This document shows, piece by piece, positions 5,234 to 20,496 of a stretch of 20,496 nt of DNA (the first letter of the stretch is position 1; each line of letters starts with the position of its first letter). This DNA comes from a virus. Position numbers and translations under genes: made by a program. The notes beneath the pieces were generated by a model. That model had not been told where the DNA came from and searched no databases. It saw only the letters and a list, made by a program, of their open reading frames with translations. Location of the stretch: positions 1 through 20,496 of IMG/VR virus record IMGVR_UViG_3300009183_000443. One strand, written 5' to 3'.

Positions 5234-5237
5234 AGCT

Positions 5238-5486: not shown

Positions 5487-5680
5487 ATCTTATTGCTGAA
5501 ATAGAGTTACTACCTGAGAACATCAGGTACTCTAAGCACTCATGTGTGGCTTTATTAAAGATTAGAATTAAGTATGATGGGGTGCAACCTAGAGAATGCT
5601 TTTGTGCATCTGTTAGGAGGAGGATATGGTACAAAGATTTTATGATATGGTATGAAAAAGCTCTTAGATCAGTACATTAG
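5465..5680 (+). CDS. Small hypothetical protein (71 aa)
   Basis: I chose the ATG at 5465 (MFEQTEIDLI), which overlaps the previous gene by 22 nt. An upstream ATG at 5429 would add 12 residues and overlap by 58 nt, which is less likely. The product is mixed alpha/beta in character with several aromatic residues and a basic stretch (SVRRRIWYKDF); it has two cysteines near the middle (ECFC). I do not recognise the family. Its 3' end overlaps the sigma-like gene by 29 nt, so the three genes 5238-6194 are probably read as one unit. Confidence 0.6.
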   Translation: MFEQTEIDLIAEIELLPENIRYSKHSCVALLKIRIKYDGVQPRECFCASVRRRIWYKDFMIWYEKALRSVH

Positions 5681-6194
5681 CAGGGCTTACCCTGAGGTGA
5701 GAGCTTATACGGCTTACTTTCTATCTAAGATGGGTAGCTACATAGACGCTGATACAGTCATAAACAACAGTTACCTTCATGTGCTTACTATAATTGATTA
5801 CACAGCAGATGAGGATAAGGTAAAGGGATACCTGCTGAACACTATCAAGTATCAGATCCTTTGGAGTACATCTAAAAGCCACAAAGATGATAGGGTAACA
5901 GCTATAATAGATAATACTCCTGATAGGATAGAGGATGATGAGCTAGCAGATAAGATAAGGGAGGATAGAACCTACTCTTTTAACAAGGGATTGATAGAGA
6001 TATATAGATCAGAGATAGTGGACCAGGTACAAAGGATAGTATTTGAGGCATACATTGATAAGGGGTACATAACAAGCAGAGCACTGGCTACATATTTTGG
6101 TATTACTCACACCTCAGCTTACTACCTGATCAAAGAATTAAAACAAAATCTAAACAAATTACAATATAGGTATGAAAGCGAGCCAGTTTATTAG
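5652..6194 (+). CDS. Sigma-70-like transcription regulator
   Basis: The layout resembles a small ECF-type sigma factor. Residues ~20-85 (YFLSKMGSYIDADTVINNSYLHV, then VKGYLLNTIKYQILW) resemble sigma region 2, which binds the -10 DNA and core polymerase. A variable acidic linker follows (DDELADKIRED). Residues ~125-175 (QRIVFEAYIDKGYITSRALATYFGI, then TSAYYLIKEL) read as a region-4-like helix-turn-helix. I know this family from Flavobacteriia phages, usually unannotated or called sigma factor. Its place just before the packaging and structural genes suggests late-gene control, and a recurring TATAATATAGGT-type motif downstream is a candidate target. It could instead be an HTH regulator that does not bind polymerase. 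Confidence 0.6.
   Translation: MKKLLDQYISRAYPEVRAYTAYFLSKMGSYIDADTVINNSYLHVLTIIDYTADEDKVKGYLLNTIKYQILWSTSKSHKDDRVTAIIDNTPDRIEDDELADKIREDRTYSFNKGLIEIYRSEIVDQVQRIVFEAYIDKGYITSRALATYFGITHTSAYYLIKELKQNLNKLQYRYESEPVY
6160..6171 (+). promoter_or_regulatory. TACAAT-ATAGGT start-site motif (variant copy)
   Basis: TACAATATAGGT lies directly against the ATG at 6172, sharing AATATAGGT and the zero-length spacing to ATG with the copies at 15443 and 17913. It lies inside the 3' end of the sigma-like gene, so part of the match is also coding sequence. It may drive or initiate expression of the 54-aa membrane protein. Confidence 0.4.
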
Positions 6195-6336
6195 TATCTT
6201 GTCACTGCTTACAGCTCTGAGCTGTGGACTTGCTTTGTTCATGCTAGATTATGTGTGGGCTAGTAGGGCAGCAGGATTATGGATAGCTTTTTATTATACA
6301 TTTTTAATTTTATTACAGCATGAAAACAAAGAGTGA
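6172..6336 (+). CDS. Small two-span membrane protein (54 aa)
   Basis: This ORF starts inside the sigma-like gene (22-nt overlap) and ends 17 nt into the next one. The product has two hydrophobic segments, one near residues 6-24 (ISILSLLTALSCGLALFML) and one near 34-49 (GLWIAFYYTFLILL), joined by a short loop containing DYVWASRA. It ends with a charged tail (HENKE). The shape resembles a small holin or antiholin, but the sequence does not prove this and no lysin gene is nearby. The AATATAGGT motif touches its ATG. Confidence 0.6.
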   Translation: MKASQFISILSLLTALSCGLALFMLDYVWASRAAGLWIAFYYTFLILLQHENKE

Positions 6337-6529
6337 ACACCTAGGAAAATACATTACTATGTATAATGGTAATTTTGAGACCAGCTTTACAGTAACAGAA
6401 GAGACTGCTAAGGATCATAAGTATTATACATCTAAAGGATTAGGCTATCTATTTGAAGAGAGCACTCCTAAGGTAAAGTATAAAGGGGTAGATAACGAAG
6501 AGAAAAAAGAGAAAGATGCCGAGGCCTAA
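6320..6529 (+). CDS. Small hypothetical protein (69 aa)
   Basis: The product begins MKTKSEHLGKYITMYNGNFE, has a short mixed alpha/beta body (ETAKDHKYYTSKGLGYLFEE) and ends in a strongly charged tail (NEEKKEKDAEA). I do not recognise a domain. It lies directly before the terminase small subunit with a 14-nt overlap, and small genes in this place are frequent in related phages. No membrane segment or cysteine cluster is present. A packaging accessory role would be a guess. Confidence 0.65.
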   Translation: MKTKSEHLGKYITMYNGNFETSFTVTEETAKDHKYYTSKGLGYLFEESTPKVKYKGVDNEEKKEKDAEA

Positions 6530-6929
6530 ACTGATAGAAACTCCTGAGAAGTTAATGGAGATATTTGAGGAGTACAAAGCATATTGTGCTGCTAACCCCA
6601 GGACTAAATGGGTGCTATCACAAAAGACTGCTGAGATGGTAGCAGAGCCATTAAGAGTACCTTTGACTAATGAGGGCTTTGAGATATTCTGCTATAATAA
6701 CTACAGTGATGTGCACCATTATTTTGATAACACTGATGGTAGATATTCTGAATATAGGACAATCTGTACGCACATAAAGAAAGAGATCCGTAACGATCAA
6801 ATTACAGGAGGGATGGTAGGACAATTTAACCCGTCTATAACTCAGAGACTAAACGCACTGAAAGAGCACACAGATGTAACCAGTGGTGATGAGAAGATAT
6901 CTGCTATAACTGTTACTATAGTTAAGTAG
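6516..6929 (+). CDS. Terminase small subunit
   Basis: The small terminase subunit recognises phage DNA and feeds it to the large subunit for packaging. The protein has the form typical of Bacteroidota phages: an N-terminal MPRPKLIETPEKLMEIFEEY, a PLTNEGFEIFCY helix-turn-helix-like segment, and a C-terminal GGMVGQFNPSITQRLNALKE used in assembly. Its length (137 aa) is usual for the family. It is directly followed, after 50 bp, by the large subunit. The start at 6516 lies inside the preceding gene with a 14-nt overlap and fits the conserved N-terminus. Confidence 0.82.
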   Translation: MPRPKLIETPEKLMEIFEEYKAYCAANPRTKWVLSQKTAEMVAEPLRVPLTNEGFEIFCYNNYSDVHHYFDNTDGRYSEYRTICTHIKKEIRNDQITGGMVGQFNPSITQRLNALKEHTDVTSGDEKISAITVTIVK

Positions 6930-6979
6930 TATAATAATAATAATAACTATATAGTATCTAACTAGGTACTAGCTTTGCT
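6930..6979 (+). repeat. AAT-repeat and palindrome between terminase genes
   Basis: This 50-bp gap contains a short (ATA)n run at 6931-6946, beginning with a TATAAT at 6930-6935, and a perfect palindrome ACTATATAGT at 6946-6955. It could hold a weak promoter for the large terminase gene. Simple AT-rich drift explains it equally well. Confidence 0.3.
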
Positions 6980-8128
6980 ATGGATATAAAAGCGACTGCC
7001 ATCTTTGAGAAGAACTATGAGGCCATCTTAAGTGATAAGAGGTTCATTATTAATGAGGGTGGTTCCAGGAGCTCTAAGACCTACAGCCTCTGTCAGCTCA
7101 TGATCATCTACTGCCTGCAGAATAACAATAAGGTAGTATCAGTAATACGCAAGACCTTCCCTGCCCTACGTGCCACAGTGCTCAGGGACTTCATAGAGAT
7201 ACTTAAAGATATAGGGCTGTATAAGCAGGAGAGCCACAATAAGTCTGAGCACATCTACACCTTTGGTAATGGTAGCATGGTGGAGTTTTTTAGTGTGGAT
7301 GATGAGCAGAAAATAAGGGGTAGGAAAAGAGATATAGCCTGGTGTAATGAAGCCAATGAGCTGTACTTTGATGACTTCACTCAGCTTAACATGCGTACTG
7401 AGGACAAGCTCATCTTTGACTACAACCCATCTGATAGTGTATCGTGGCTGTATGAGCTCCCTGCTGAGGAGAGCACCCTGATAAAGTCCACCTACAAAGA
7501 TAACCCATTCCTACCTGATAGCATCAAGGCACAGATAGAGGATCTAGCTAGAACAGATGAGGCACTGTATCAGATCTATGCCCTAGGTGAGAAGGCAACA
7601 AGCAAGAGTAACATCTACAGCAACTGGTCCTTTGTGGCTCATAGGCCTAGCAGATTTGTTAAGTACGTGTATGGCTTAGACTTTGGTTACAATCACCCCA
7701 CAGCTTTGATGAGGGTATACTACTGTGATAATGATATCTACATAGAGCCTGTGATATATGAGAGCTACCTCACCACTACTATGCTCATAGAGAAGTTAGC
7801 CACCCTAAACATAGAACAGACTGTTACCATCCTAGCAGATTACTCACGTCCAGAAATCATCCAAGAGATGAACATAGCAGGGTATGATGTACAGAACGCA
7901 AACAAGGTGGTTAAGAAAGGGATAGACAACCTTAAGACCTTTGGAGTTATATGCCAGGATGATAAGGCAGTGAAGAGAGAGTATGAAAACTACAAATGGA
8001 AAAAGATAGGGGACTTCATAACAGATGAGCCCGTCAAATTATTCGATGATGCTATGGATGCAATAAGATATGCCACTACTCACATAAGGCAGGAGTATTA
8101 CACTGATGATAGTTACTATGCATTCTGA
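6980..8128 (+). CDS. terL: Terminase large subunit (PBSX/Terminase_3 type)
   Basis: This is the motor that pumps DNA into the prohead and cuts it. The N-terminal ATPase has Walker A GGSRSSKT (residues 27-34), an IRKTFPALRATV segment, and Walker B RDIAWCNEAN with Glu124. The nuclease domain follows: GLDFGYNHPTAL with Asp234, ILADYSRPE with Asp287, and DDAMDAIRYA with Asp357/Asp360, giving the expected acidic triad. At 382 aa it is compact but complete. The ATG at 6980 lies about 20 residues before the first conserved block, as in relatives. It overlaps the next ORF by up to 23 nt. Confidence 0.95.
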   Translation: MDIKATAIFEKNYEAILSDKRFIINEGGSRSSKTYSLCQLMIIYCLQNNNKVVSVIRKTFPALRATVLRDFIEILKDIGLYKQESHNKSEHIYTFGNGSMVEFFSVDDEQKIRGRKRDIAWCNEANELYFDDFTQLNMRTEDKLIFDYNPSDSVSWLYELPAEESTLIKSTYKDNPFLPDSIKAQIEDLARTDEALYQIYALGEKATSKSNIYSNWSFVAHRPSRFVKYVYGLDFGYNHPTALMRVYYCDNDIYIEPVIYESYLTTTMLIEKLATLNIEQTVTILADYSRPEIIQEMNIAGYDVQNANKVVKKGIDNLKTFGVICQDDKAVKREYENYKWKKIGDFITDEPVKLFDDAMDAIRYATTHIRQEYYTDDSYYAF

Positions 8129-8294
8129 TACGCTACATAAGATACAAGTGGTGCAGGCATACATCCACCATAAGACAGGCAAGAGTGTACGGATAGTATT
8201 CAACAACCCTATGAGGATGCAGCAACATTTGGCCATGTTAGATCATGCCTACCTCATCGCAATGGGTGGCTTTAAAAACAATAATACAAAGTAA
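8106..8294 (+). CDS. Small hypothetical protein after TerL (62 aa)
   Basis: The frame overlaps the end of the terminase gene and fills the gap before the first tail gene. Two in-frame starts are possible, 8106 and 8118; the second gives a smaller overlap (11 nt) and 58 residues. The product contains IQVVQAYIHHKTGKSVRIVF followed by a helical QQHLAMLDHAY segment and a polar tail. It has a plausible alpha/beta composition without low complexity, so I think it is real. No function is recognised. Confidence 0.55.
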   Translation: MIVTMHSDTLHKIQVVQAYIHHKTGKSVRIVFNNPMRMQQHLAMLDHAYLIAMGGFKNNNTK

Positions 8295-8306
8295 ACTAAT
8301 ATAGGT
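8295..8306 (+). promoter_or_regulatory. ACTAAT-ATAGGT start-site motif (divergent copy)
   Basis: TAATATAGGT lies 11 nt before the ATG at 8318 of the first tail gene. It shares AATATAGGT with the copies at 6160, 15443 and 17913, but here the motif does not touch the ATG. If it is a promoter, this transcript would have a short leader. Confidence 0.35.
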
Positions 8307-8317
8307 AAAGACAAGTA

Positions 8318-9793
8318 ATGGCATTAGTAGCACAAGCAACCCCACAAATAATAGTTCCTGCATACAACCCTGTTAAGTATATCTACAGCAGTAGCAATGT
8401 AAACCTGCAGGGCTTCAAGTTTATCTATGATATCTATCAGAGTGGTACCCTAAACAAGATAGCAGAGTACAGGGTGCTGCCAACTTATGCGACTGGCTTT
8501 GGTGAGATAGATCTATCGAAGCTCTTACAGGCTAAGGTAAGCTATGACCTGAACTTGACTAACACCTCAGTATATAACGCACCTGGATCCCACTACAAGT
8601 ATGATGTAAGGATAGGGGAGGAATACTTGACTACCACTAGTTACACCTTTGCATTAACCCAATATCTAATAGCCCCTTATGTAGGAAGGGTACAGATAAA
8701 CGTAGCTAACACATTCATAGTAGGTGACCAAATCAATATAGTGCAAACAGGTGCAGGTGTAACCAACCCCAACTTAGAGGGACTCTTTACAGTCTTAGTA
8801 GCTAACCCTGCTTTCATAGTAGTGAACAGCTTATGGTCTCAGATAGTCAATGCCAATAAGGATGGAGATATCACCTATGCAGATGGCCGTAAGACTGTCA
8901 ACAGAAACCTAGCACAACAGCTTAACAAGTATGTATTCAACGGTGCTATCAATTGGGCTGAGTGGCCTAGCTATAACTATCAGGACTTCATGCTCAATGG
9001 TATCTTTGATAGGTTCCTAACTAACTACCCTGCAGGTAACAAGAATATGTACGCTACCCTATCTCAGGATATGTGGGTGAATGCAATAGCTAACGGCTCA
9101 CCTACTCCACCTGATACAATGGTCTTTGCAAATAGTAATGGTAGCATCTTTGAAAAGAACGTAACAGCTGTGGACCATCTTAGTGGTGTATCAGTAGGGC
9201 CTAACAACTTTGGGGTGCTTACCCTGGTCTTTGGTTCAGGTAACTTGATAGAGCCTACCACTGAGTACTATGACTTTTACTATGAACGTAATGGGGTGAT
9301 GAGCTCAGCAAGATACAGAGTAACACTAGATAGAAGGATCCGCACCACTGAGTACAGCATCTTATTCCTAGACAAGCTAGGCTCATGGAACAGCTTTGCC
9401 TTTACCCTTAATGTATATGAGAAAGGTAACGTTACACGTGAGCAGTTTAACCAGGATGTAAGAGGTTATATAAATGGTAGTAATCAATGGGACTATGCAC
9501 TAACTGAGAGAGGTATGACAAACACCTATGTGAGCACTGAGACTACCCTAGATCTAGCTACCAACTTCATGACTATGGACATGGCCAACTACTTCACTGA
9601 GCTCATCTCATCACCCTTCACTTATGTAAAGCTAAGCTCATATGCAAATGACTGTGATGTGCCTGTGAGTGAGGAGTATATTAGCTGTAACATTGTAACA
9701 AGTGACTACCAGGTATATAATAATAGGAGTAAGAATTTAATTAAGCAGAACGTAACTATTAAGCTAGCTAATAACAATATCGTAAATGGTTAA
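8318..9793 (+). CDS. Tail structural protein (distal tail/tip component), 491 aa
   Basis: I recognise the N-terminus (IIVPAYNPVKYIYSS, then FKFIYDIYQSG) as a structural protein widespread in Flavobacteriia phages, always beside the large tail protein and tape measure. It is beta-rich. An inserted segment at residues ~117-200 (RVQINVANTFIVGDQINIV, then DITYADGRKTV) looks like a small beta-barrel. No enzymatic motif is seen. The exact place in the virion is inferred from gene order: it precedes the 962-aa tail protein, with which it overlaps by 8 nt. A head-fibre or adaptor role cannot be excluded. Confidence 0.65.
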   Translation: MALVAQATPQIIVPAYNPVKYIYSSSNVNLQGFKFIYDIYQSGTLNKIAEYRVLPTYATGFGEIDLSKLLQAKVSYDLNLTNTSVYNAPGSHYKYDVRIGEEYLTTTSYTFALTQYLIAPYVGRVQINVANTFIVGDQINIVQTGAGVTNPNLEGLFTVLVANPAFIVVNSLWSQIVNANKDGDITYADGRKTVNRNLAQQLNKYVFNGAINWAEWPSYNYQDFMLNGIFDRFLTNYPAGNKNMYATLSQDMWVNAIANGSPTPPDTMVFANSNGSIFEKNVTAVDHLSGVSVGPNNFGVLTLVFGSGNLIEPTTEYYDFYYERNGVMSSARYRVTLDRRIRTTEYSILFLDKLGSWNSFAFTLNVYEKGNVTREQFNQDVRGYINGSNQWDYALTERGMTNTYVSTETTLDLATNFMTMDMANYFTELISSPFTYVKLSSYANDCDVPVSEEYISCNIVTSDYQVYNNRSKNLIKQNVTIKLANNNIVNG

Positions 9794-12674
9794 GATACAA
9801 CTAAGCACAGGCTTCCTAGATGTTAAAGAGGGCACTGCCTTCCCTTTAAATTTTCAGGTAGGAGATATCAGAGATGTGAGCCAAAGGAAGGGTAACTTCT
9901 CTAAGACTATTACTTTAACCGGGAGCAAGAATAACAACAACTTGCTTAACCACTACTATGATGTGAATATAGTGGAGGGCACCTTTAACATAAATGCTAT
10001 TACTACCTGTGCTGTTATTCAGCAGGGCATCCCAATAATGGAGGATTGCACTATGCAGTTAACAGGGGTGGTTAAGTCACAGGTAACAGATGGGTATGAG
10101 GAGCAGGTAACGTATGAGGTATTGGTTAAGGATAGCAAAGCAGATTTCTTTACAGCCATCGCTAACAAGGAACTAACTGATATAGACTTCTCAGATTTTA
10201 ACCACATATACAATGCACTACAAGTAGTTAATAGATTTTCTAATACTGTAGCTAATGGCTTCAAGTACTTTCTACCTGCTTCTACTAATGGTGTCTATAG
10301 CATAAACGAATTTAAGCCTGCCATCTTTGCTAAGACTTACTTTGATAGAATCTTTGAGGATGCTGGCTTTAGCTACAGCTGGCCTACCATGTCTTATGAT
10401 AGATTTCAGCAGCTGCTTATCCCTTACAATGGAGGTACTGATAACTTTGATTATAATGATTTTTTAGTAAAAGCAGAAAAGACAACACCCACTACTATCA
10501 ATGGAGCTAACAACTGGGCAGGCTTCTCTAACATAGCACAAGTAGCTACCACACAATCTCCTGCCACTAAGATTAACTTAACAGGGTGGACTGAGCTAGA
10601 TGATATACAAGGGCAATTTAATCCTGTAACAGGTGTGTACTCTACACCATTTTTTAATATAAGTGCAGCCAATGCTCAAAGCTATGACTACAGCATCACT
10701 ATGACTTACACGCTTAATGTAGTGAATACATCAGGTGGTACTTTGTATGGTAGTGCTAGTGGATCAGCAGCCAATGTATATTATAAGCCTGCTATAGGAG
10801 TTTCAATACCAGGGGTGCCTATTATATTTAGTAATCTATTTACTAACACAGCACCCAATGCTACTTTATTAGGTGTTACTAATGCAGTGCAATGTCCTTT
10901 AACTATACCTGTAGGTACTACTTCTATTTTAACACAAACAGTACAGACTACTATACCACTTAGCTACACTCAAATAGGGCAAAACTCATCAGCAACTTTA
11001 GGTATAAATGTAAGCCAACAATATGCCACAATAGGCAACGCTGCATCTGTTAGAAATTGGAGAAAAACTTCCCCATCAGGATTAGCTCCTGCATCAGGAC
11101 AAGTACAAATACAGGCTGTTATCTCTAACATACTAATAAGCATAGTGCCTAGTAGTAATATATATGCTATAAACTCCGCCCTTGGTATAATAGAGGTTAA
11201 TGATTACGTGCCTAAAAAGATAAAGCAGAGTGATTTCATTAAGGGCATCTTTAACATGTATAACATCTACGCTCAGGTAGATAGCACCCAACCCAATAAG
11301 CTACTAATACAGAATAGGGATGATTTCTACGATAGTGGTGCTGAGGTGGACTGGACTGCTAAGCTAGCCAAAGACCAGGAGCAGAACTTATCATTTCTCC
11401 CTGAGCTCACCGCTAAGAAAATAATACTAACATATGCTGAGGATAAGGATAACCCTAACACTACTTACACCAACGCCACTAATAATATCTATGGGCAAGC
11501 TGAGGTTATCTTTGATAATGAGTATGTAAAGGATGTAGATACTAAGGATGTACTCTTTAGCCCTACTCCTGTAATTAAAACACAATTTGGTGCATACGTT
11601 CCTATGATAGCAGGTGCTGCACCTGAGACTAACATACGTATCCTATATGATAAGACTACAGCAGGACAGCCACTAGCTACCTGTGGGCAGTTCTACATAT
11701 ATGACTATGGATCTATAGGACAAATTAACTTAACTAGCTATCCATTGGTAGGCCACTTTGATGATCCACTCACTCCTACCTTTGATATTAACTTTGCCAT
11801 CTGTGATTACTACTACTACCAACCTACTAGCCTAACAGATAACAACCTGTACAACAGATACTGGAGGCGTACAATGGGGCAGATAAACAACGGTAAGATG
11901 CTAACTGCTTTGTTTAATCTTAAAGAGCCTGATATCCAGGCCATGAAATTAAATGATAAGATTAGGATAGATAATTCATGGTGGAACATTAACAAAGTAA
12001 TTGACTATGATGCCAACGCTAACAAGCTCACAAGGGTAGAGCTCATCAGTATAGATAATGAAATTAACTTCACCCCGTTCATGGGACCTAGTGGACCTAA
12101 TGTACCCAACCCTCCTGCAGGGATAGGCCCTATACAAATGATGGCCATGAGTAATATCAATACTACTAGGATGGTGAACTCTAATGTATTTGGTGATCAG
12201 GCTACAGCAACTGTACAGGGTAGAGGTAATGTGATAGTGGGTGGCACTAGATCAGTGGTGGTAGGAGATGATCGTATCATCAGTGAGACTACTCTAGCAG
12301 GTGATCACCTAGTGGTTAATAGTTTAAATGGAGTACCTACAGGCACAGTGCCATTAATCTACATAGCTAACTTAACACAGGCAGGATTAACAGATCCTAT
12401 AGTACAGGTAAAAAATGATAGCTTAGGTGGTGTTACATGGACCAGAACAGGAGTAGGTACTTATGAGGGGTACTTAGATGGCTTTGAGCCTTCATATATC
12501 TCTAGCACAAACGTGCCTACTATAATGATTAACAACGTAAACTTTGACGGGGTAATCTCAGCACAATACTCTACAAGCTCTAACAGCGTATCAGTTACAA
12601 CCACTCAAATAGGGATAGGCTTTGTAGATGGATACTTAGACGGCACCACAATAGAAATTAAATACTACATATAA
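9786..12674 (+). CDS. Large tail tip/baseplate-type protein (962 aa)
   Basis: This is probably part of the tail tip that contacts the host. The N-terminal ~170 residues (GFLDVKEGTAFPLNFQVGDI, then FSKTITLTGSKNNNNLLNHY) form a block I know from Bacteroidota phage tail proteins, continuing with FKPAIFAKTYFDRIFEDAGF. Residues ~235-470 are a Ser/Thr/Asn/Gly-rich beta insert unlike the flanks. The conserved body resumes at KKIKQSDFIKGIFNMYNIYA. Residues ~855-962 look like a small C-terminal beta domain (YIANLTQAGLTDPIVQV, then DGYLDGTTIEIKYYI) shared with phage fibres. It overlaps the preceding gene by 8 nt and ends 1 bp before the tape measure gene. Confidence 0.7.
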   Translation: MVKIQLSTGFLDVKEGTAFPLNFQVGDIRDVSQRKGNFSKTITLTGSKNNNNLLNHYYDVNIVEGTFNINAITTCAVIQQGIPIMEDCTMQLTGVVKSQVTDGYEEQVTYEVLVKDSKADFFTAIANKELTDIDFSDFNHIYNALQVVNRFSNTVANGFKYFLPASTNGVYSINEFKPAIFAKTYFDRIFEDAGFSYSWPTMSYDRFQQLLIPYNGGTDNFDYNDFLVKAEKTTPTTINGANNWAGFSNIAQVATTQSPATKINLTGWTELDDIQGQFNPVTGVYSTPFFNISAANAQSYDYSITMTYTLNVVNTSGGTLYGSASGSAANVYYKPAIGVSIPGVPIIFSNLFTNTAPNATLLGVTNAVQCPLTIPVGTTSILTQTVQTTIPLSYTQIGQNSSATLGINVSQQYATIGNAASVRNWRKTSPSGLAPASGQVQIQAVISNILISIVPSSNIYAINSALGIIEVNDYVPKKIKQSDFIKGIFNMYNIYAQVDSTQPNKLLIQNRDDFYDSGAEVDWTAKLAKDQEQNLSFLPELTAKKIILTYAEDKDNPNTTYTNATNNIYGQAEVIFDNEYVKDVDTKDVLFSPTPVIKTQFGAYVPMIAGAAPETNIRILYDKTTAGQPLATCGQFYIYDYGSIGQINLTSYPLVGHFDDPLTPTFDINFAICDYYYYQPTSLTDNNLYNRYWRRTMGQINNGKMLTALFNLKEPDIQAMKLNDKIRIDNSWWNINKVIDYDANANKLTRVELISIDNEINFTPFMGPSGPNVPNPPAGIGPIQMMAMSNINTTRMVNSNVFGDQATATVQGRGNVIVGGTRSVVVGDDRIISETTLAGDHLVVNSLNGVPTGTVPLIYIANLTQAGLTDPIVQVKNDSLGGVTWTRTGVGTYEGYLDGFEPSYISSTNVPTIMINNVNFDGVISAQYSTSSNSVSVTTTQIGIGFVDGYLDGTTIEIKYYI

Positions 12675-12675
12675 A

Positions 12676-14994
12676 ATGAACGAAGTAGAAATACCAATAG
12701 TAGTCTCTGGCCTTGGTGCCATTAAAGCAGAACTAAAAGCACTCAAAGGTGAGATAGCTAACGCTACAGATCCTGCAGATATTGCTAGGCTGTCTCAGGA
12801 AGCAGGGGTACTTAAGGATAAGATATCAGATGCTAATGAGGCAGTGAATGTATTTGCTACAGGCTCAAAGTTTGAGCAGGTTAGTAATGGTATAGGTGGT
12901 ATCAAAGATAGTTTGATGAGCCTTGACTTTGAGGAAGCATCCACTAAGGCATCCACACTAGCAACTACTATGGGCAAACTTAACCCCAAAGAAATACTAG
13001 GGGGGATGGGTAACTTTGTTAAGATGCTAGGAACTCTAGGCAGTGCCTTTGTAAAGCTAGGTGTACAGATCCTTATGAATCCTTTATTCTTATTGGTAGT
13101 AACTATTGTAGCTATTGTGGCTGCAGTAGGTTTCTTCCTGGATAAGATAGGGGTGCTAGGGGCTGTGCTAGATTTCTTAATGATACCTATCAATGCTGTG
13201 ATAGATGCTTTAAAATGGCTAGGAGATGCACTAGGATTAACTACATTCGCTCAGGATGAGGCAGCTGCTAATGCTAAGAAAAATTCAGAGGCTACACTAG
13301 CAGAAATTAAAAAAGAAACAGAAGCAAGAGATAAGAGCTTTGAAAGAAGGAAACAAGTGTACACCGAATCAGATGATGCAATGGGCAGGGAAATTAAGCT
13401 CATGAAGGCACAGGGTAAGGATACTACCAGCTTAGAAAGAGCAAGACTAAAGGCAGCCATATCATATCAGGCAGGACTAGTAAATGAAACCTATGCTATT
13501 CAGCAACAACTAAAAGCTAAAAATGAGTTAACAGTAGCTGAGCTTAGAGCAAGTGCTGAGAAAACAGGTGACTATACTGCATGGAATAAATTTGAGAAAG
13601 AGATGGCGGCTACAATGGCGGCTAATGCCAAGGCTAATGCTGCTGCCAATACTGCTAGACTAAACTCTATAAATGATTTGGCTGTCTTTGAGCAGGAGCT
13701 AATAAATGATAAAAAAAAGGCGGCTGATGATGAGGCAAAAGAGGCAGCAAAAAATAGAGAGAAGGCTAACAACGATAGTAAGGCAGCTGCTGAAACTAAT
13801 GCAGCGGATAGATTAGCATCTGCTAGAAAGATTAGGGATGGTGAAATAAGGATAATGGCCGAAGGTTTAGCTAAAGAGGAGGCTATAATACAGGAGAAAT
13901 TCAAAAGAGAAAGAGAGGATATCGCTTCTAATACTAAACTAAAAACAAAAGAGAAAATAACATTAACTGAGCAAGCGGATAAAGAAGAGGCAGCAGAACT
14001 TAAGTTAAAAAGAGAAGCTATTAAAGACCTTGAAAAAAAGAACTTGATAGCAGTAGAGAGTGAACTAGCACAGCTTAGATTAGATGCCATGGCAGAAGGT
14101 GCTGAGAAAGAATTAATACTACAAAATGAGAAGTATCAAAAGCTAAGAGATGCTGCCAACGCTGATACTAGATTAACTCAAGAGCAACTAAAAGAGAAGC
14201 TAGATTTATATAACACTATGCAGATACAGGAAGAGACTGCAAGAATGAAAGACAAGGTTAAGGCTGCAAGTGATTTACTAACTGAACTTACTACCACAGA
14301 AGAGCAGAAGAGAATAGCAGAAATAGAAGCTAAGTATCTTAAGGATCAAGAGATGGCAATGGGTAACCAGAAAGCTCTAGAGATACTAGAAGCCAACCAC
14401 AAAAAAGCTCTAGATGATATTAATAAAGAGGCCACATTAAAACAAATAGAAGAGGATCAAAAAGCAAGGGATGCAAAGCTAGCACTAGCAGGAGATATTG
14501 CTAAGGGTATTACTGATATTGGTGGTATGCTTATTAAAGACCAGGAGAAGCTAGCTAAATTTAACAAGGCCAGTGCTCTTATTCAAATAGGTATAGATAC
14601 TGCTAAGGCTATCAGTGCTTTGGTAGCTAATTCACAGGCTAACCCAATGAATAGTTTAACAGCAGGTGCAGCAGGTATTGCTCAATTTGCTACAGGAATT
14701 ATTCAGATTGCTACCAACGTAGCTAAGGCAAAGCAGATACTTACATCACCAGGCACAACCCCTAGCGGAGGTGGTGGAGGTGGTGGTGCTACAGGAGGTG
14801 GAGGTACATCGGCAGCCACAGCTTTACCTCAGGCAGCTCAATTATTTGGCAGTGCTAACACAGGTGGAACCATGAGTGCAGGGGGTGGATCTAGTGAGTC
14901 AGGCAATATGACTGTAACAGCTGTAGTATCTGAGACTCAAGTAACATCCACACAACAGAAAATAAACCGTATAAATAAATCAGCAGAACTATGA
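12676..14994 (+). CDS. Tail tape measure protein (772 aa)
   Basis: The tape measure sets tail length and helps DNA cross the host envelope. The protein has a helical N-terminus, a strongly hydrophobic segment at residues ~136-156 (NPLFLLVVTIVAIVAAVGFF) with a second amphipathic stretch after it, and a long charged coiled coil from ~195 to ~610 rich in Ala, Glu and Lys. A further hydrophobic block (IQIGIDTAKAISALVANSQA, then AAGIAQFATGIIQIA) precedes a Gly-rich tail and a C-terminal VSETQVTSTQQKINRI, a typical ending in Bacteroidota phages. Using the common rule of about 1.5 Angstrom per residue, 772 residues suggest a tail near 115 nm. Its stop overlaps the next gene by ATGA. Confidence 0.9.
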   Translation: MNEVEIPIVVSGLGAIKAELKALKGEIANATDPADIARLSQEAGVLKDKISDANEAVNVFATGSKFEQVSNGIGGIKDSLMSLDFEEASTKASTLATTMGKLNPKEILGGMGNFVKMLGTLGSAFVKLGVQILMNPLFLLVVTIVAIVAAVGFFLDKIGVLGAVLDFLMIPINAVIDALKWLGDALGLTTFAQDEAAANAKKNSEATLAEIKKETEARDKSFERRKQVYTESDDAMGREIKLMKAQGKDTTSLERARLKAAISYQAGLVNETYAIQQQLKAKNELTVAELRASAEKTGDYTAWNKFEKEMAATMAANAKANAAANTARLNSINDLAVFEQELINDKKKAADDEAKEAAKNREKANNDSKAAAETNAADRLASARKIRDGEIRIMAEGLAKEEAIIQEKFKREREDIASNTKLKTKEKITLTEQADKEEAAELKLKREAIKDLEKKNLIAVESELAQLRLDAMAEGAEKELILQNEKYQKLRDAANADTRLTQEQLKEKLDLYNTMQIQEETARMKDKVKAASDLLTELTTTEEQKRIAEIEAKYLKDQEMAMGNQKALEILEANHKKALDDINKEATLKQIEEDQKARDAKLALAGDIAKGITDIGGMLIKDQEKLAKFNKASALIQIGIDTAKAISALVANSQANPMNSLTAGAAGIAQFATGIIQIATNVAKAKQILTSPGTTPSGGGGGGGATGGGGTSAATALPQAAQLFGSANTGGTMSAGGGSSESGNMTVTAVVSETQVTSTQQKINRINKSAEL

Positions 14995-15425
14995 ACAGTC
15001 TACAAGCCATAACAAACCATATCACAGCTTTCTATACAGCACATAAGCAAGTATTCAAAGTGGGTAGTGATTTCAAAGAACAGCTTTACAACTTTGCTAC
15101 TCAGGATGAGAAGTATCCTTTAGTGTATATTGTACCTAGTGGAGTGATACCAACTGAGAATACTACAGAGTTTAGCTTTGATATATACTGTTATGATATC
15201 ATACAAAAAGATAGAGCTAACATCATAACTATTCTAAGTGATACACAACAGATCCTTAATGACTTGTATATCTATTATATGGATAGCACTGATTATAGCT
15301 TTGATGTGGTAGGAGTGCCAACATTCTCACCCCTCAATAATGATCTACTAGATTACGCTGCAGGATACCAGATGAGTATAACACTAACAGTTAATGATTG
15401 GACTGATTGTGCTGTGCCAATTTAA
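14991..15425 (+). CDS. Tail terminator/completion-like protein (144 aa)
   Basis: The protein has the shape of a small alpha/beta neck or tail-terminator protein: an N-terminal helix (NSLQAITNHITAFYTAHKQV), then YPLVYIVPSG, then strands and a helix (DIYCYDIIQKDRANIITILS, then TQQILNDL). I know this pattern from Flavobacteriia phages, where it lies near the tape measure. Tail terminators cap the tail tube and contact the head. No motif proves the role. It is overlapped with the tape measure by ATGA and followed by a 29-bp gap with a promoter-like motif. Confidence 0.55.
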   Translation: MNSLQAITNHITAFYTAHKQVFKVGSDFKEQLYNFATQDEKYPLVYIVPSGVIPTENTTEFSFDIYCYDIIQKDRANIITILSDTQQILNDLYIYYMDSTDYSFDVVGVPTFSPLNNDLLDYAAGYQMSITLTVNDWTDCAVPI

Positions 15426-15442
15426 ACATTTAACTTTGATAA

Positions 15443-15454
15443 TATAATATAGGT
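15443..15454 (+). promoter_or_regulatory. TATAAT-ATAGGT start-site motif
   Basis: TATAATATAGGT directly abuts the ATG at 15455. Together with the first coding bases it forms TATAATATAGGTATGGC, 17 bases identical to the site at 17913-17929. A TATAAT box followed by 6 nt and ATG would place the transcription start at the start codon and give a leaderless mRNA. The upstream bases are AT-rich with no clear -35 element. Confidence 0.5.
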
Positions 15455-16165
15455 ATGGCTAATGGATGGTGGGGTGATTGGAGGCCCTCTTTACCTGCTC
15501 ACACAGGAGACTTACAGGCAACAGATTTGATAGAGTGTACTTCCATTATAGGAGGGGTGCCTACTAATACTGCTATTACAGGCACTCAGATAATAAACGC
15601 TGCTAGTGGTGGTGCTGCAGTATGGGGAGCTATCACAGGAACGCTATCTAGTCAAACAGATTTACAGACTGAATTGAATGCTAAGCAGAATAAGACTGTA
15701 CTAGCTAACACTACAGCTACAGTTTCAATAACAAATACAACTAGTGAAATTAATATACTAACTGTAGCTATACCTACCACAATAAATAATGCCATGCTTC
15801 GCTCATCTTTTATTGTAAGGGTAACTACATTAGGTGCAGCTGCTCCTAGGACCAGAATAAGAATGGGTACATTTGCCAACCCTACTAATGCACAACTAAC
15901 AGCTTCCACTCAAATAGCTACTAATGCTATAGGATCTATAGGGATGGTATCCATCTATAGGACTATGCCTGTAATAGGAGGTGTATCAGGAACTATAAAA
16001 GCCTTTGCTACAGGAAGTAATGCTAATGCTGACTATGGTCAGTTATCATCCTTTGATTTAATATCTAAAGACTTTACTACTCAGCAATACTTATACTTTA
16101 CAATTCAAAATAATACACTAGCTGCAGTAACTCAAAGCCTTGGGGTAATGGTAGAAAATTTATAA
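15455..16165 (+). CDS. Fibre-like structural protein (236 aa)
   Basis: The first ~80 residues carry WGAITGTLSSQTDLQTELNA, a motif typical of phage fibre proteins, where short helical and beta repeats anchor the fibre. The rest (from VLANTTATVSITNTTSEINI) is a Thr/Asn-rich beta domain with an IRMGTFANPTNAQL segment and a YLYFTIQNNT near the end. This is a jelly-roll-like pattern that recurs in Flavobacteriia phage fibres. It is probably a short appendage or receptor-binding protein. Whether it sits on the tail or head is not decided by the sequence. It starts directly after the TATAATATAGGT motif and lies 2 bp before the next gene. Confidence 0.6.
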   Translation: MANGWWGDWRPSLPAHTGDLQATDLIECTSIIGGVPTNTAITGTQIINAASGGAAVWGAITGTLSSQTDLQTELNAKQNKTVLANTTATVSITNTTSEINILTVAIPTTINNAMLRSSFIVRVTTLGAAAPRTRIRMGTFANPTNAQLTASTQIATNAIGSIGMVSIYRTMPVIGGVSGTIKAFATGSNANADYGQLSSFDLISKDFTTQQYLYFTIQNNTLAAVTQSLGVMVENL

Positions 16166-16167
16166 TA

Positions 16168-16638
16168 ATGGGTAGATACGCAAATACAGGTGAATTTAAT
16201 GTGCTTTATCCTACACGTAGGAGGATGGCAAACATCCTTAAGAGAATAGTAGATGCTGAACTAGAAGATCCTGAGGGCACACTAGTAAGCTCTATAAGGA
16301 TCAATGCTAAGATTACAGGCTTTGAGAAGCTAGAGATACAAATAGTAGCAGCTTATTACTTTATCTTTCTTAATAATGGGGTGCCAGAAACTGCTAACCA
16401 ATATGGGCCTAATGATGGTAGGATTGCACCTAGAGATTTTGTCTCTAAGTTTACTAGGGCTTTGGCTAGTGCAGGTATTACTACAGAAATATATTCTCAG
16501 TATGTAGATTGGATAAATAAAAGATACCCTATCCTAGAAGCTGTTAAGGTATTAGAAGAAAATCAAAAACTAGTCTACACATTTGAGGCACTCTTTGCAC
16601 CTCCTGGATTTGTCCAGGGAACGCCCTTAGATGTCTAG
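16168..16638 (+). CDS. Possible head-tail connector/neck protein (156 aa)
   Basis: The protein has an N-terminal helix-rich part (RRRMANILKRIVDAEL), a strand pair (IRINAKITGFEKLEIQIVAA), then YYFIFLNNGVPE and GRIAPRDFVSKFTRAL. The 'aromatic patch, loop with Gly/Pro/Arg, helix' order is reminiscent of HK97 gp10-like connector proteins, whose members carry a RPF-like motif before the last helix. I hold this only weakly. Its position between tail and head genes fits. The 3' end overlaps the convergent - strand gene by 12 nt, so no terminator fits between them. Confidence 0.4.
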   Translation: MGRYANTGEFNVLYPTRRRMANILKRIVDAELEDPEGTLVSSIRINAKITGFEKLEIQIVAAYYFIFLNNGVPETANQYGPNDGRIAPRDFVSKFTRALASAGITTEIYSQYVDWINKRYPILEAVKVLEENQKLVYTFEALFAPPGFVQGTPLDV

Positions 16639-17364
16639 CTCTTTTTTCATACCCATCATATTGAATACGTAGGTAAGGGGTAGAGCTCCTATCTTATCAG
16701 ACTTAGTAAGATCATTATTGCACAGGCCGTAGATCATACGTTCCCAGCTCCATTTAGAATCTTTCTTAGTATCCTCCTCCTCTTTCAACTCCTCAGGTGT
16801 GAGCTCTGCTTTCTGTTCTGCTGTTAGCTCAGGTAACTCCTCACCTTGAAATAAGTTTTGGTAGGTCTTTAGAAAGTTATCTCTGAACTTTAGAAAATCA
16901 CTAATGATTCCATAAACATCTGTGATGGGTAGGTCTAGGAACTTATCAGCTCTGATGGTACAATCATATTCATACGGCTCTATTATCTCTTCACCCCACT
17001 CATTAACTTTGCTTTGCCTGTACAGTACACCACATATATTAGCTAGATTAGTGATGTAGTTATTAGTGAAATAATAATCTAGATCTATATACTCATAGAG
17101 GCACAGTTTATTAAAGGGCTTAACCTTCATACCTAGAAGCTCTGATTTATAATTGTTGGATGGCTGTGATAGTGCCCATTTGCACTGCTTAACTATCTTG
17201 ACCATATCATCCACATCTATATCATCTATCACCTCAGTAGACTCATTACAAATAATAGATAGTATCTCAGTATTATAGTAGTAGGATCCCTGTGATTTAT
17301 CTATCTCAGATATCTCTATGAACTGCTCTACACTTATCTCACTCCACTGCTTCGGTAGATACAT
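16627..17364 (-). CDS. Tail assembly chaperone-like protein, second of pair (245 aa)
   Basis: The N-terminus (LPKQWSEISVEQFIEISEID) resembles that of the upstream neighbour (EELTIEQFEAITDI), so the two look related. The C-terminal end has a highly charged stretch (LPELTAEQKAELTPEELKEE) followed by KWSWERMIYGLCNNDLTKSD, a 'Trp, helix, LA/LC-xxD' pattern like the C-terminal part of phage tail assembly chaperones. Such proteins hold the tape measure before tail assembly. The ATG at 17364 lies 26 nt inside the upstream gene, in its +1 (equivalently -2) frame, with a GGAG just before it. A slippery A AAA AAC lies 11-17 nt upstream. Function is inferred; the - strand placement is unusual. Confidence 0.55.
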   Translation of the reverse strand: MYLPKQWSEISVEQFIEISEIDKSQGSYYYNTEILSIICNESTEVIDDIDVDDMVKIVKQCKWALSQPSNNYKSELLGMKVKPFNKLCLYEYIDLDYYFTNNYITNLANICGVLYRQSKVNEWGEEIIEPYEYDCTIRADKFLDLPITDVYGIISDFLKFRDNFLKTYQNLFQGEELPELTAEQKAELTPEELKEEEDTKKDSKWSWERMIYGLCNNDLTKSDKIGALPLTYVFNMMGMKKELDI

Positions 17365-17881
17365 TCTCCACTTGGTTTTTTACCTTGTTAGCCACAAACA
17401 TAATGTAAGGGATGCAGATCTCTGCTTTCAATTTTCTTATGTGCTTAGATTTAAGCTTAAGATGAGCTTCGGAATAATGTTCTGCAGTAGTTAGGTGATC
17501 TGCTTTAAACATTACTGCCATCATATCTGAGATGTATCCCTTCTGCTTATGGATAGCTATTTTTTCTATCAGCTTAGTTTCTCTTACTGTTAGTTTTAGC
17601 TCTGCAGTATATGTAAAGCCATCTAGCTCTAATGTACCTACAGGCTCCATGTTATTAGTAAGCTCTGGTGCTGTATTAAACTCTTTTACTATATCAATAA
17701 AATCTGAGATGTCAAAATCAAAAAATTCCTTCTCAGGTATTCCTAGATACTCAAAGATTTGCAGGTGCCTGTCCACAGGATCTATCTCTTTATTATTGTT
17801 AATGTCTGTAATTGCTTCAAACTGCTCAATAGTCAGTTCCTCAATTTTGTTGGGGATCTCCCTTCCTAAAATAGTTACCAT
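17339..17881 (-). CDS. Tail assembly chaperone-like protein, first of pair (180 aa)
   Basis: This protein begins MVTILGREIPNKIEELTIEQ and has an acidic first half (PEKEFFDFDISDFIDIVKEF), a central beta pair (GTLELDGFTYTAELKLTVRE) and a basic C-terminal helix (HLKLKSKHIRKLKAEI). I assign it to tail assembly chaperones from its location between tail and head genes, the two-gene overlap and the shared N-terminal pattern with its partner; no motif proves it. It is transcribed opposite to all other genes here, from a TATATTTG box that ends 15 nt before its ATG. It ends inside the next gene and carries a slippery heptamer near its 3' end. Confidence 0.55.
   Translation of the reverse strand: MVTILGREIPNKIEELTIEQFEAITDINNNKEIDPVDRHLQIFEYLGIPEKEFFDFDISDFIDIVKEFNTAPELTNNMEPVGTLELDGFTYTAELKLTVRETKLIEKIAIHKQKGYISDMMAVMFKADHLTTAEHYSEAHLKLKSKHIRKLKAEICIPYIMFVANKVKNQVENVSTEAVE
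17375..17381 (-). other. Canonical slippery heptamer A AAA AAC
   Basis: On the - strand the zero frame of the 180-aa gene reads GTA AAA AAC, so A AAA AAC is in exactly the register needed for tandem tRNA slippage. A -1 shift would add only 13 codons before TAA. A -2 (or +1) shift enters the frame of the 245-aa gene, which is open from a TAA that overlaps the heptamer, and would give a fusion of about 418 residues. Confidence 0.4.
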
Positions 17882-17896
17882 AGTTTATTTTTTTTA

Positions 17897-17904
17897 CAAA
17901 TATA
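17897..17904 (-). promoter_or_regulatory. Bacteroidota -7 box (TATATTTG) for the - strand pair
   Basis: Read on the - strand the sequence is TATATTTGTAAA, identical over 12 bases to the box before ERF (from 3414). It ends 15 nt before the ATG at 17881, leaving a short A-rich leader. A TTTG lies 24 nt upstream, slightly farther than the usual -33 spacing. It shares a 43-bp divergent gap with the + strand motif at 17913. Confidence 0.5.
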
Positions 17905-17912
17905 TGAATAAT

Positions 17913-17924
17913 TATAATATAGGT
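17913..17924 (+). promoter_or_regulatory. TATAAT-ATAGGT start-site motif before protease
   Basis: TATAATATAGGT directly touches the ATG at 17925. With ATGGC it makes a 17-base match to the site at 15443-15459. It is the only promoter-like element on the + strand in the divergent gap upstream of the protease, scaffold and capsid genes. Confidence 0.5.
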
Positions 17925-18878
17925 ATGGCAAAAGATAATTTACCTGTTTACAAGATTACTATAGATCCTGAATACTCTGAAAATGGGGAGGACTTAGGTA
18001 TAGAACAAATTGCTTTTACATCCACTCCTGCTATCAAAGTAATGGGTATGGCTTTCAATAGCCAGGTTAAGCCTATGATATTTACAGATGATCTTAAGTA
18101 TCGCATAGTAGCACCTGCTCTTATCCCTATGGAGATCTATAGGAAGGATGATGAGGATGGTAAAGAGTACTATGTTAAGTTTACTATAGAAGAGATAGAG
18201 AAAATTCATGCAAAGTTTATGCGTGATATGAGTAACAAGGATCTCTTTAACCTAGAGCACGATACAGATAAGACTGTACCTGCTTATGTATTGGAAGCAT
18301 GGATAGTAGATACACCCAAAGAGGATAAGGCTTATTCTAGTTTTGGCATTGAGGTACCTGAGGGCACACTAATGGTAACAGCTCAGGTAACTGACAAAGA
18401 ATACTATGCTCAATTGGTAGCAGATGGGCAGGTAGGTTTCAGCATAGAAGGATATCTAGGCATGAAGCTCAAAGAACAGCAACAACTTAAAACAAATAAT
18501 ATGAACAAATTACCTGATGGTGAACACTTAATTGACGGCAAGATCTACGTTGTGGTTGATGGTGAAATCACTGAAATTAGAGATCAAGAAGTAGTAGTAG
18601 AAGAAGAGGCAATGTCTGATACTGTTGTAGAAGAGGAAGTAGTAGAGGAAGAGACTATGGCTGTAGATCCTGCTTTAGATGCTGAGGCAATACTAGCAAT
18701 AGTAACGCCATTAGTAACAGAACAAGTAGATATGCTTGTGGCTATGATAGCTGATTTAAAAAATCAATTAGAAGAGGCACTTGTAGCAGAGACTGCAGAT
18801 GAGGCAGTAATGGAAGAGGCTGTAAAAATGAGTGTACAGCAAAAATTAAGTAAATTCAATAAATTTAATAATCAATAA
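17925..18878 (+). CDS. XkdF-like prohead protease with C-terminal scaffold
   Basis: The N-terminal ~180 residues match the XkdF-type phage serine protease: IAFTSTPAIKVMGMAF, then YRIVAPALIPMEIYRKD with YYVKFT, then LFNLEHD with His112, a VLEAWIVDTP strand, and GFSIEGYLG with Ser173 as likely nucleophile. From residue 193 on the protein changes: NKLPDGEHLIDGKIYVVVDG is followed by an acidic, Glu/Val-rich coiled region and a basic tail (SVQQKLSKFNKFNN), the look of a capsid scaffold. So it is a protease-scaffold fusion of 317 aa. The start at 17925 gives a clean N-terminus; the frame continues upstream but runs through the opposite gene. It lies 15 bp before the major capsid gene. Confidence 0.82.
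   Translation: MAKDNLPVYKITIDPEYSENGEDLGIEQIAFTSTPAIKVMGMAFNSQVKPMIFTDDLKYRIVAPALIPMEIYRKDDEDGKEYYVKFTIEEIEKIHAKFMRDMSNKDLFNLEHDTDKTVPAYVLEAWIVDTPKEDKAYSSFGIEVPEGTLMVTAQVTDKEYYAQLVADGQVGFSIEGYLGMKLKEQQQLKTNNMNKLPDGEHLIDGKIYVVVDGEITEIRDQEVVVEEEAMSDTVVEEEVVEEETMAVDPALDAEAILAIVTPLVTEQVDMLVAMIADLKNQLEEALVAETADEAVMEEAVKMSVQQKLSKFNKFNNQ
18501..18878 (+). CDS. Possible internally started scaffold protein (125 aa)
   Basis: The ATG at 18501 is in frame with the protease gene (codon 193) and would yield just the scaffold part. It is preceded by ttaaaacaaataat, an A-rich leader like the one before the capsid gene (aaaaaaacaaacaATG). The start coincides with the domain boundary after the last protease block. 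Nested scaffold genes inside protease genes are known, the model being lambda C and Nu3. This is an inference; the sequence cannot show that the start is used. Confidence 0.45.
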   Translation: MNKLPDGEHLIDGKIYVVVDGEITEIRDQEVVVEEEAMSDTVVEEEVVEEETMAVDPALDAEAILAIVTPLVTEQVDMLVAMIADLKNQLEEALVAETADEAVMEEAVKMSVQQKLSKFNKFNNQ

Positions 18879-18893
18879 ACAAAAAAACAAACA

Positions 18894-19838
18894 ATGAGAA
18901 AACTAAGATTTGATTTAAACATTGATGCTTCTGCATTATTAGCACCAAACGCTGATGCGTTTTACGCACAGGCTTACCTTTCAGGTAGTGAAATTCCTGA
19001 TAACTTCCGTACTTTACCTGGTATCAAGTACAAAACTAAAATTGGTACAGTTACTTTTGGTTCTGGCTTACTAGCTACTAGCCCTTGTAACTTCCCTAAC
19101 TTGAATACAGATGACTTAAGCTCTCATGAAGTAGACGTATGTGCTCTTTCTGCTATGGCTCAAGTTTGCCAGTTTGACTTAGAGCAGTCTTTTGTATCTT
19201 TACAAATGGCAGCAGGTTCTAATGGTGATTTCACAGTAGCTTCTTTCTTTAACTTCTACTGGTCTGAAATGGCAAACGCTATTGCTGGACAAATTGAGTC
19301 TTTAAGATGGCAAGGTGATACCTTATCTGTTAATCCACAACTTGCTTTATGTGATGGTTATGAGAAAGGATTAGCTGCTTCAGTTTTAGCAGGTGATGTT
19401 ATCAATGGTGGTACAGGTGCTATCACTACATTTACAGGTGTAGCTGGATTAGGTGCAAAATTAGCAGCTGCTTTTGCTTTAGTTCCTGCAGCTATTGCTT
19501 CCCGAACTGCTGACTTGCGTATCTACATGCCTACTCAATTGGTTAATATCTACCGATTAGGTGTAGCTTCAGGTAACACTAATGCATATATCACTCAAGA
19601 TTTATCTTTAACTTACTTAGGTATCAAAATAGTTCTTTGTCCAGGGATGTCTAATGATACTTTTGTAATCACTTTGAAAGACAGTCTTATCTATGCATTT
19701 GATGGTGAAGGTGACTCTTCAGACTTACGTGCTGTAAACTTAGCAGATACTGTTGCTGAGCCAGTGATCAGAACACGTGCTAACATGAAAGTAGGATTTA
19801 GCTTTGTTAACCCTACAAATATCGTTTACTACGCTTAA
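18894..19838 (+). CDS. Major capsid protein (HK97-fold expected)
   Basis: The protein forms the capsid shell. Evidence is its position directly after the protease-scaffold gene, its length (314 aa), and its composition: an N-terminal part with NADAFYAQAYLSGSEIPDNF, a long middle with EQSFVSLQMAAGS, a loop DVINGGTGAITTFTGVAGLG, then ASRTADLRIYMPTQLVNIYR and a C-terminal TRANMKVGFSFVNPTNIVYY. This resembles capsid proteins of Bacteroidota siphophages, with P-domain-like strands near the end. Codon use differs from the neighbours: Arg is often CGT or CGA and Ser often TCT, as in highly expressed genes. The leader is very A-rich (aaacaaaaaaacaaacaATG). A strong hairpin follows the stop. Confidence 0.85.
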   Translation: MRKLRFDLNIDASALLAPNADAFYAQAYLSGSEIPDNFRTLPGIKYKTKIGTVTFGSGLLATSPCNFPNLNTDDLSSHEVDVCALSAMAQVCQFDLEQSFVSLQMAAGSNGDFTVASFFNFYWSEMANAIAGQIESLRWQGDTLSVNPQLALCDGYEKGLAASVLAGDVINGGTGAITTFTGVAGLGAKLAAAFALVPAAIASRTADLRIYMPTQLVNIYRLGVASGNTNAYITQDLSLTYLGIKIVLCPGMSNDTFVITLKDSLIYAFDGEGDSSDLRAVNLADTVAEPVIRTRANMKVGFSFVNPTNIVYYA

Positions 19839-19851
19839 TATTAACTCATAG

Positions 19852-19867
19852 AGGGGGGCAACCCCCT
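19852..19867 (+). terminator. GCAA-tetraloop hairpin after the capsid gene
   Basis: AGGGGG (19852-19857), loop GCAA and CCCCCT (19862-19867) form a 6-bp stem closed by a GNRA tetraloop. Only TTTA follows, so it is a weak terminator at best. It lies 13 nt after the capsid stop and 20 nt before the next start. It may partly end transcription or protect the 3' end of the capsid message. Confidence 0.6.
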
Positions 19868-19887
19868 TTATATAAAACATATAAATC

Positions 19888-20427
19888 ATGCCAACATGTC
19901 AAGCCCTCGAGGCCATTTTAAAAAGTTGCGATAATAACAGTGGGGGTATCTATGGAATATGGATTAACCAACAGGATGAGATCGCATCCATCACTCCAGC
20001 AGATCCTTCTGCAGGTGCAGGATGGGCTATCACAGCTATCACTTTAGCAGGTCTTAATTTATTTGAGAACTATTATATCCGTAGAAATACATCTAGCTTT
20101 ACAGAAGAGGCTGCTATTGACTTAATCAATGGTTCATCTTTTGTTACTTCTACTATCTCTTTGATGTTTCAACGTAGAGAAGCTGATAAGTCTAGATCTA
20201 TCAAAATTTTAGGATCAGGACAGCAGTATCTTACTGCTATTGTTTTGGATGCTAATGGAATTTATTGGTACTTTCCTTACTTACAAGTTACAGGTGTAGC
20301 TGAAGGATCAGGTACTGCTCGTGCAGATGGTTCTAAATATGCTGTAACTTTGTTAGGTGAAAATGAATATCTAGCTTATGAGGTACAAATGTTAGCACCT
20401 GCTTTAGCTGCTATCGGAGTATCTTAA
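19888..20427 (+). CDS. Structural protein, possible tail tube protein (179 aa)
   Basis: The protein begins MPTCQALEAILKSCDNNSGG and reads as a beta-sandwich: RRNTSSFTEEAAIDLINGSS, then RSIKILGSGQQYLTAIVLDA, then NGIYWYFPYLQVTGVAEGSG and ADGSKYAVTLLGENEYLAYE. The 'DANGxYWxF...GTARADGSxYxxTLxGxxxxxA' pattern is one I associate with tube-like or decoration proteins of Bacteroidota siphophages. A tail tube protein is required and no better candidate is visible, but a head decoration protein would also fit. Its codon use resembles that of the capsid gene, implying high expression. It is followed by a strong terminator. Confidence 0.5.
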   Translation: MPTCQALEAILKSCDNNSGGIYGIWINQQDEIASITPADPSAGAGWAITAITLAGLNLFENYYIRRNTSSFTEEAAIDLINGSSFVTSTISLMFQRREADKSRSIKILGSGQQYLTAIVLDANGIYWYFPYLQVTGVAEGSGTARADGSKYAVTLLGENEYLAYEVQMLAPALAAIGVS

Positions 20428-20449: not shown

Positions 20450-20477
20450 AGCCCTGCATATTGTGGGGCTTTTTTTA
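20450..20477 (+). terminator. Strong rho-independent terminator
   Basis: AGCCCTGCA (20450-20458) pairs with TGTGGGGCT (20462-20470) across a TAT loop, giving nine pairs including two G-T wobbles. A run of seven T follows from 20470. It lies 22 nt after the stop of the 179-aa structural gene and probably ends the protease-capsid transcript. Confidence 0.85.
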
Positions 20478-20496
20478 TTTCTAAACATTTGACTAA

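Follow-up and report, generated by a model that had tools for sequence, protein, structure and literature searches.

A bipartite element heading late gene units, a probable late promoter in a phage group with an ECF-like candidate sigma factor

The window analyzed here, all 20,496 bases of the linear fragment that forms the complete IMG/VR record IMGVR_UViG_3300009183_000443, carries a recurrent bipartite element with the consensus tAAACA-N17-tAATATAGGT. We consider it likely that this element is a late promoter used by host RNA polymerase together with a phage ECF-like sigma factor, with transcription starting on or near the start codon. A sequence-only reading of this DNA had proposed a phage late promoter, and the proposal gains support from the position of the element at the heads of structural units, its orientation, the fixed spacing of its -35- and -10-like parts, its synonymous conservation, and its sigma-like neighbor.

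Copies of the element in the window

An exact search of the whole window located AATATAGGT at 6163, 8298, 15446, and 17916, all on the + strand and each just before a gene start, and found no copy on the - strand. Shuffled sequence contained a mean of 0.49 copies over both strands (100 shuffles, maximum of 3). The credible genes that follow begin with ATGs at 6172, 8318 (11 nt further on), 15455, and 17925. These four sites and start codons, along with an exact 17-mer repeat, TATAATATAGGTATGGC, at 15443 and 17913, had been recorded in the sequence-only reading and are present as claimed. The motif that it described is real at the four sites but is only the downstream half of a bipartite element; the half that was missed, [A/T]ACA, lies 17 nt upstream of every AATATAGGT copy, at 6142, 8277, 15425, and 17895. 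When one mismatch was allowed, the bipartite pattern had no further match in the window (0.23 in shuffles). No Rfam family matched, and a sigma70 consensus scan did not discriminate, giving 48 matches versus 48.7 in shuffles.

The first copy (6142 to 6171, +; AACA, 17 nt, AATATAGGT) is located within the 3' end of the sigma-like gene and touches ATG 6172, which opens a + strand unit (6172 to 8128) encoding a 54-aa protein, a 69-aa protein, and the small and large terminases. The second (8277 to 8306, +), with the same AACA half, precedes a + strand unit (8318 to 15425) of four large genes that are late tail-type genes by position, their function being inferred; one of them (12676 to 14994) is tape-measure-like by length. 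The third (15425 to 15454, +), again with AACA, touches ATG 15455 and a + strand unit (15455 to 16638) that contains a fibre/tail-like protein (phrog_25379 tail protein) and a further gene. The fourth (17895 to 17924, +) has TACA as its upstream half and touches ATG 17925, the first codon of a + strand unit (17925 to 20427) comprising a head protease (Peptidase_S78_2), a capsid-like virion protein, and a 179-aa protein. A mechanical open reading frame at 17532 to 18878 extends upstream of the real protease start and across the antisense of a minus-strand gene; an automatic gene caller would mis-start the protease gene.

The tail of the window, TCTAAACATTTGACTAA, is the upstream half of a fifth copy (20484 to 20496, +, with AACA at 20484 to 20487) that is cut by the window end; the expected fifth AATATAGGT would begin 8 nt beyond it. 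This assignment was made because the tail matches contig L197 and other relatives, in which AATATAGGT follows 17 nt on. Just before this copy lies an intrinsic terminator-like hairpin followed by a T tract (20450 to 20470, +). A conserved DNA site in several copies might also be an operator or another non-promoter site, for a repressor, packaging, or replication. We regard this as highly improbable, since the element is not palindromic, is orientation-specific, is always found at gene starts heading late units, and in one case directly follows a terminator.

Conservation among related viral contigs

Related contigs were gathered by two protein scans of viral contigs and one pattern scan, and 18 relatives of 28 to 32 kb, 8 of them with end repeats of 73 to 127 bases, were read whole. 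A weight-matrix scan of the 18 found 4 to 5 strong sites on one strand in nearly every genome and no comparable score on the opposite strand. As the matrix had been built from such sites, the test was repeated with orthologous start codons as the anchor. AATATAG was then found ahead of the same set of five genes, in 360 of the 377 distinct upstream sequences (73/73 for element 1, 69/72 for element 2, 41/53 for element 3, 95/95 for element 4, and 82/84 for element 5). The genes headed by these sites in relatives are the 54-aa gene before the terminases, the tail-type gene, the fibre-like gene, the head protease gene, and a 116-aa gene past the capsid gene. The fibre-gene alignments include 12 of 53 without the motif directly upstream; in at least one complete relative, G004, the fibre-gene motif sits one inserted gene further upstream.

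Ten control genes were treated in the same way. Seven of them (sigma, 5238, small terminase, tape-measure-like, 14991, capsid, and 19888) had no AATATAG upstream, and gene 16168 had a single upstream region with it. The string occurred without the spacing of the element in 16 of 72 upstream regions of terL and in 19 of 71 of gene 9786. An 8-mer count for which no motif was supplied, covering the 30 nt upstream of 534 genes from 12 genomes, ranked ATATAGGT (46 seen versus 1.1 expected) and AATATAGG at the top; the two were seen 46 to 48 times each, versus 1.1 to 1.3 expected. The second enriched class in this count was TATATTTG, the Bacteroidota -7 box.

Across relatives, the ACA-to-core spacing is 16 to 17 nt (16 in 57 of 95 sequences at element 4), and conservation is 0.95 to 0.99 in the core, 0.64 to 0.91 in AAACA, and 0.38 to 0.52 in the spacer. 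The distance from motif to start codon is 0 in 37 of 56 sequence clusters, 1 to 2 nt in 13, and 10 to 12 nt in 6, and 30 of the 84 genes behind element 5 start with GTG at the motif. The element persists in the distant lineages G026 and G027 as TAATATAG[GAT]T. The motif takes a shifted form, CAATATAAGT (AATATAAGT), at three G024 sites and at two in G023. A motif that has shifted together at several sites in one distant lineage fits a single trans-acting reader. In L117, one of the relatives, the early region has two nearby copies of AAATATAGGTATTAAT, at 7162 and 7212; neither is accompanied by the upstream half or followed by a called start.

A DNA signal and its candidate reader

The sequence-only reading had allowed that the motif might instead be a translation-initiation signal, in which AATATAGGT beside the ATG would aid ribosome binding in a host without Shine-Dalgarno (SD) signals. 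The motif does touch the start codon in most cases. However, its upstream half keeps a fixed distance whereas that to the start codon ranges from 0 to 12 nt, most other genes lack the motif, and the motif imposes G at -3, whereas A at this position is favored in Flavobacterium johnsoniae (PMC6847099). It is also conserved within a coding region upstream of a start. On the fixed upstream half, the variable start distance, and the G at -3, this alternative was rejected, and we consider it very unlikely.

The copy within the sigma-like gene was also informative as to coding constraint. In 86 sigma genes, codons 164-165 (AAACA) and 171-174 (CAATATAGGTAT) had a synonymous entropy of 0 to 0.27 bits, versus a mean of 0.91 bits over 57 invariant residues, and the next gene does not overlap the upstream half of the element there. 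This synonymous freezing rules out coding constraint as the cause of the conservation of element 1. In G026 and G027, the end of the sigma gene is without the element, and the QYRY residues of the protein are also lost. The constant internal spacing, the varying start distance, and the synonymous freezing indicate that the late element acts as DNA, and the economical reading of these sequence data is most likely a promoter-type DNA element.

With AATATA(G) as the -10 part of a promoter, and given that the ATG must be transcribed, transcription would start on the ATG or no more than a few bases ahead of it. The encoded N-termini align from the motif-adjoining start codon across relatives, and lineages differ in how the reading frame is set relative to the motif, which argues against starts further upstream. 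From this geometry, leaders would probably be absent or only a few nt long at four of the five elements and about 11 nt long at element 2, and most late mRNAs would probably be leaderless or nearly so. In F. johnsoniae, the mean leader length is 33 nt and most leaders exceed 10 nt (PMC6847099); in the literature on leaderless promoters (PMC12340547, PMC3898074, and PMC3160421), 1 of 37 Bacteroidetes/Chlorobi genomes had leaderless genes.

The candidate reader is the product of the gene at 5652 to 6194 (+), a putative ECF-like phage sigma factor with two helical domains, so designated on sub-threshold NCBIfam matches, an AF2 model, and Foldseek neighbors. The protein had no Pfam or PHROG match, and its weak NCBIfam sigma matches, although nearly full length, were all below cut-off (TIGR02937, 16.3 bits against a cut-off of 42.9). 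No sigma factor was matched when PDB sequences were searched with a plain profile. The AF2 model (pLDDT 81, pTM 0.42) places helices at residues 2-73 and 95-176 on either side of a linker at 75-92, the two-domain layout of sigma2 and sigma4, and the sigma4 domain aligns to 3hug chains with TM scores of 0.62 to 0.64. Among the top Foldseek neighbors in the PDB, most were sigma factors, of the ECF and other types (best E value of 1.4e-3 at a probability of 1.00, with no match reaching E 0.001), and many of the top neighbors among viral structures were named sigma factors. The gene had been called sigma-70-like in the sequence-only reading; the predicted fold does resemble ECF sigma factors, but the sequence scores fall below cut-off, and we call the protein sigma-like and do not file it as a member of the ECF sigma family.

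The proximity of this gene to the first element and the coordinated motif shift suggest that its product is the likely reader of the late element. Alternatively, the same promoter could be read by a host sigma factor (another ECF or alternative sigma) or through a phage activator working together with the polymerase of the host, and the 5652-6194 protein would then have a different role; the assignment of that protein from fold and weak profiles leaves room for this. The element and the protein nevertheless co-occur in those near-complete relatives that were examined, among them lineages where the protein is only 43 to 49% identical and the element is still present. Three unrelated large contigs that match the pattern lack the protein and look like chance matches. 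With fold neighbors that are mostly sigma factors as well, we judge this alternative unlikely. Less probable than any other reading is a promoter for a T7-like single-subunit RNA polymerase, which the TATAGG string at the presumed start resembles: the 30-bp bipartite form better fits sigma-type promoters, and RNA_pol (PF00940) was unmatched in 13 relatives, though the control set was uninformative, giving no match either.

Host-type promoters, hosts, and comparison with known systems

No Bacteroidota housekeeping box (TAnnTTTG) is conserved on the strand of the late element; such boxes serve other genes. One host-type -7 box, TATATTTG, at 5226 to 5233 (+), is 4 nt before ATG 5238 and heads the unit containing the sigma-like gene; it is present in 60 of 70 orthologues, at 4 to 5 nt in 57. 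Another, at 3414 to 3421 (+), precedes the ERF gene at 3444 and is found 21 to 23 nt upstream in 28 of 28 orthologues. The sequence-only reading had listed these two boxes and one at 17897 as distinct from the motif, which holds for 3414 and 5226; the third is on the minus strand (17904 to 17897) and serves minus-strand genes. A TAnnTTTG string at 15431 was rejected as a promoter of gene 15455, as relatives do not conserve it. The F. johnsoniae rule, which puts the start 4 to 5 nt after the box, would make the mRNA of gene 5238 (5226 to 5241) leaderless as well.

The minus-strand box lies at the same place as the -35-like half of element 4, where CAAAnnTA is present in 95 of 95 sequences. It belongs to the unit at 17881 to 16627, and 79 of 80 minus-strand orthologues have it. 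This unit, the only one on the minus strand among the late genes, encodes two similar-looking proteins of 180 and 245 aa with no family match of note.

In the mechanism that we propose, a host-type promoter (TAnnTTTG) would drive the early genes and the unit containing the sigma gene. Host RNA polymerase carrying the phage ECF-like sigma would then open five late units, one from a promoter inside the 3' end of the sigma gene itself, and would start on, or a few bases from, the start codon to give leaderless or nearly leaderless late mRNAs. Late initiation at element 4 could switch the minus-strand unit off, and we put forward a built-in early-to-late switch at this site as a proposal. The complete picture, in which the whole late programme of a Bacteroidota-type phage consists of leaderless mRNAs and is driven by a divergent ECF sigma that has a promoter in its own last codons and occludes an opposite-strand host-type promoter as an early-to-late switch, is tentative, and we rate it at somewhat below even chances.

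The hosts are probably SD-less Bacteroidota, on the basis of terminase neighbors, -7 boxes, and one MAG. A capsid query against genome contigs returned one related contig of 29.6 kb (L400, JAIXRY010000011.1) in a pond MAG, with 119-base end repeats and CAATATAAGT as its late motif; the same MAG encodes type IX secretion tail domains, which are weak evidence of the host. The sigma-like query against genome contigs, a prophage and host search, found none, and neither the sigma-like nor the capsid protein matched cultured phages.

If the proposal is true, it would supply a defined pair of promoter and sigma factor, specific to the phage, for a phylum whose transcription and translation signals are unusual. 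It would then also be a natural example of leaderless mRNAs being translated in hosts without SD signals, and the pair would be compact enough to serve orthogonal expression. The late element also lets late units be annotated in uncultured relatives. The literature searched, a scope that leaves out most subscription papers, contained no report of the late motif, and no phage late-promoter system in Bacteroidota was found in it.

The closest known system is that of phiEco32, 7-11, and SU10, in which the ECF sigma gp36 reads tAATGTATA before middle and late genes (motif read by the phiEco32 sigma, TAATGTATA) (PMC4331800, PMC4281155). Both systems would have a phage-encoded ECF sigma and a few promoters heading structural units, and tAATGTATA resembles tAATATAGG; in our phages, the recurrent element heads late or structural units only, with -35- and -10-like parts at constant spacing. 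In phiEco32, the motif lies 6 to 8 nt before the start site, and the same distance here would place the start on or just past the ATG at sites with an offset of 0.

T4 late promoters (TATAAATA) are read by the sigma gp55, have no known -35 element, and depend on a coactivator. They share with our element a TA-rich late sequence and a phage sigma but differ in that a -35-like half is conserved here. In Deinococcus-Thermus and Mycobacterium, the -10 element is so near the open reading frame that the mRNA has no leader (PMC12340547, PMC3898074, PMC3160421); the adjoining -10 is alike, whereas theirs are TANNNT promoters of the housekeeping sigma. The late promoters of phiKZ, as cited in PMC5312081, consist of TATG with G as the start site. 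They too are phage-specific late promoters whose motif is very short and sits at the start site, but they are read by a phage multisubunit polymerase and are not sigma-type bipartite elements. The phiEco32-type phages are enterobacterial podophages, and the available parts of their reports mention neither a -35 half nor start-codon contact; here, the element is bipartite and abuts the start codon, and the phage group has no close relative in culture. The -35-like half, the start-codon contact, the phage group, and its SD-less, probably Bacteroidota hosts are the differences from phiEco32.
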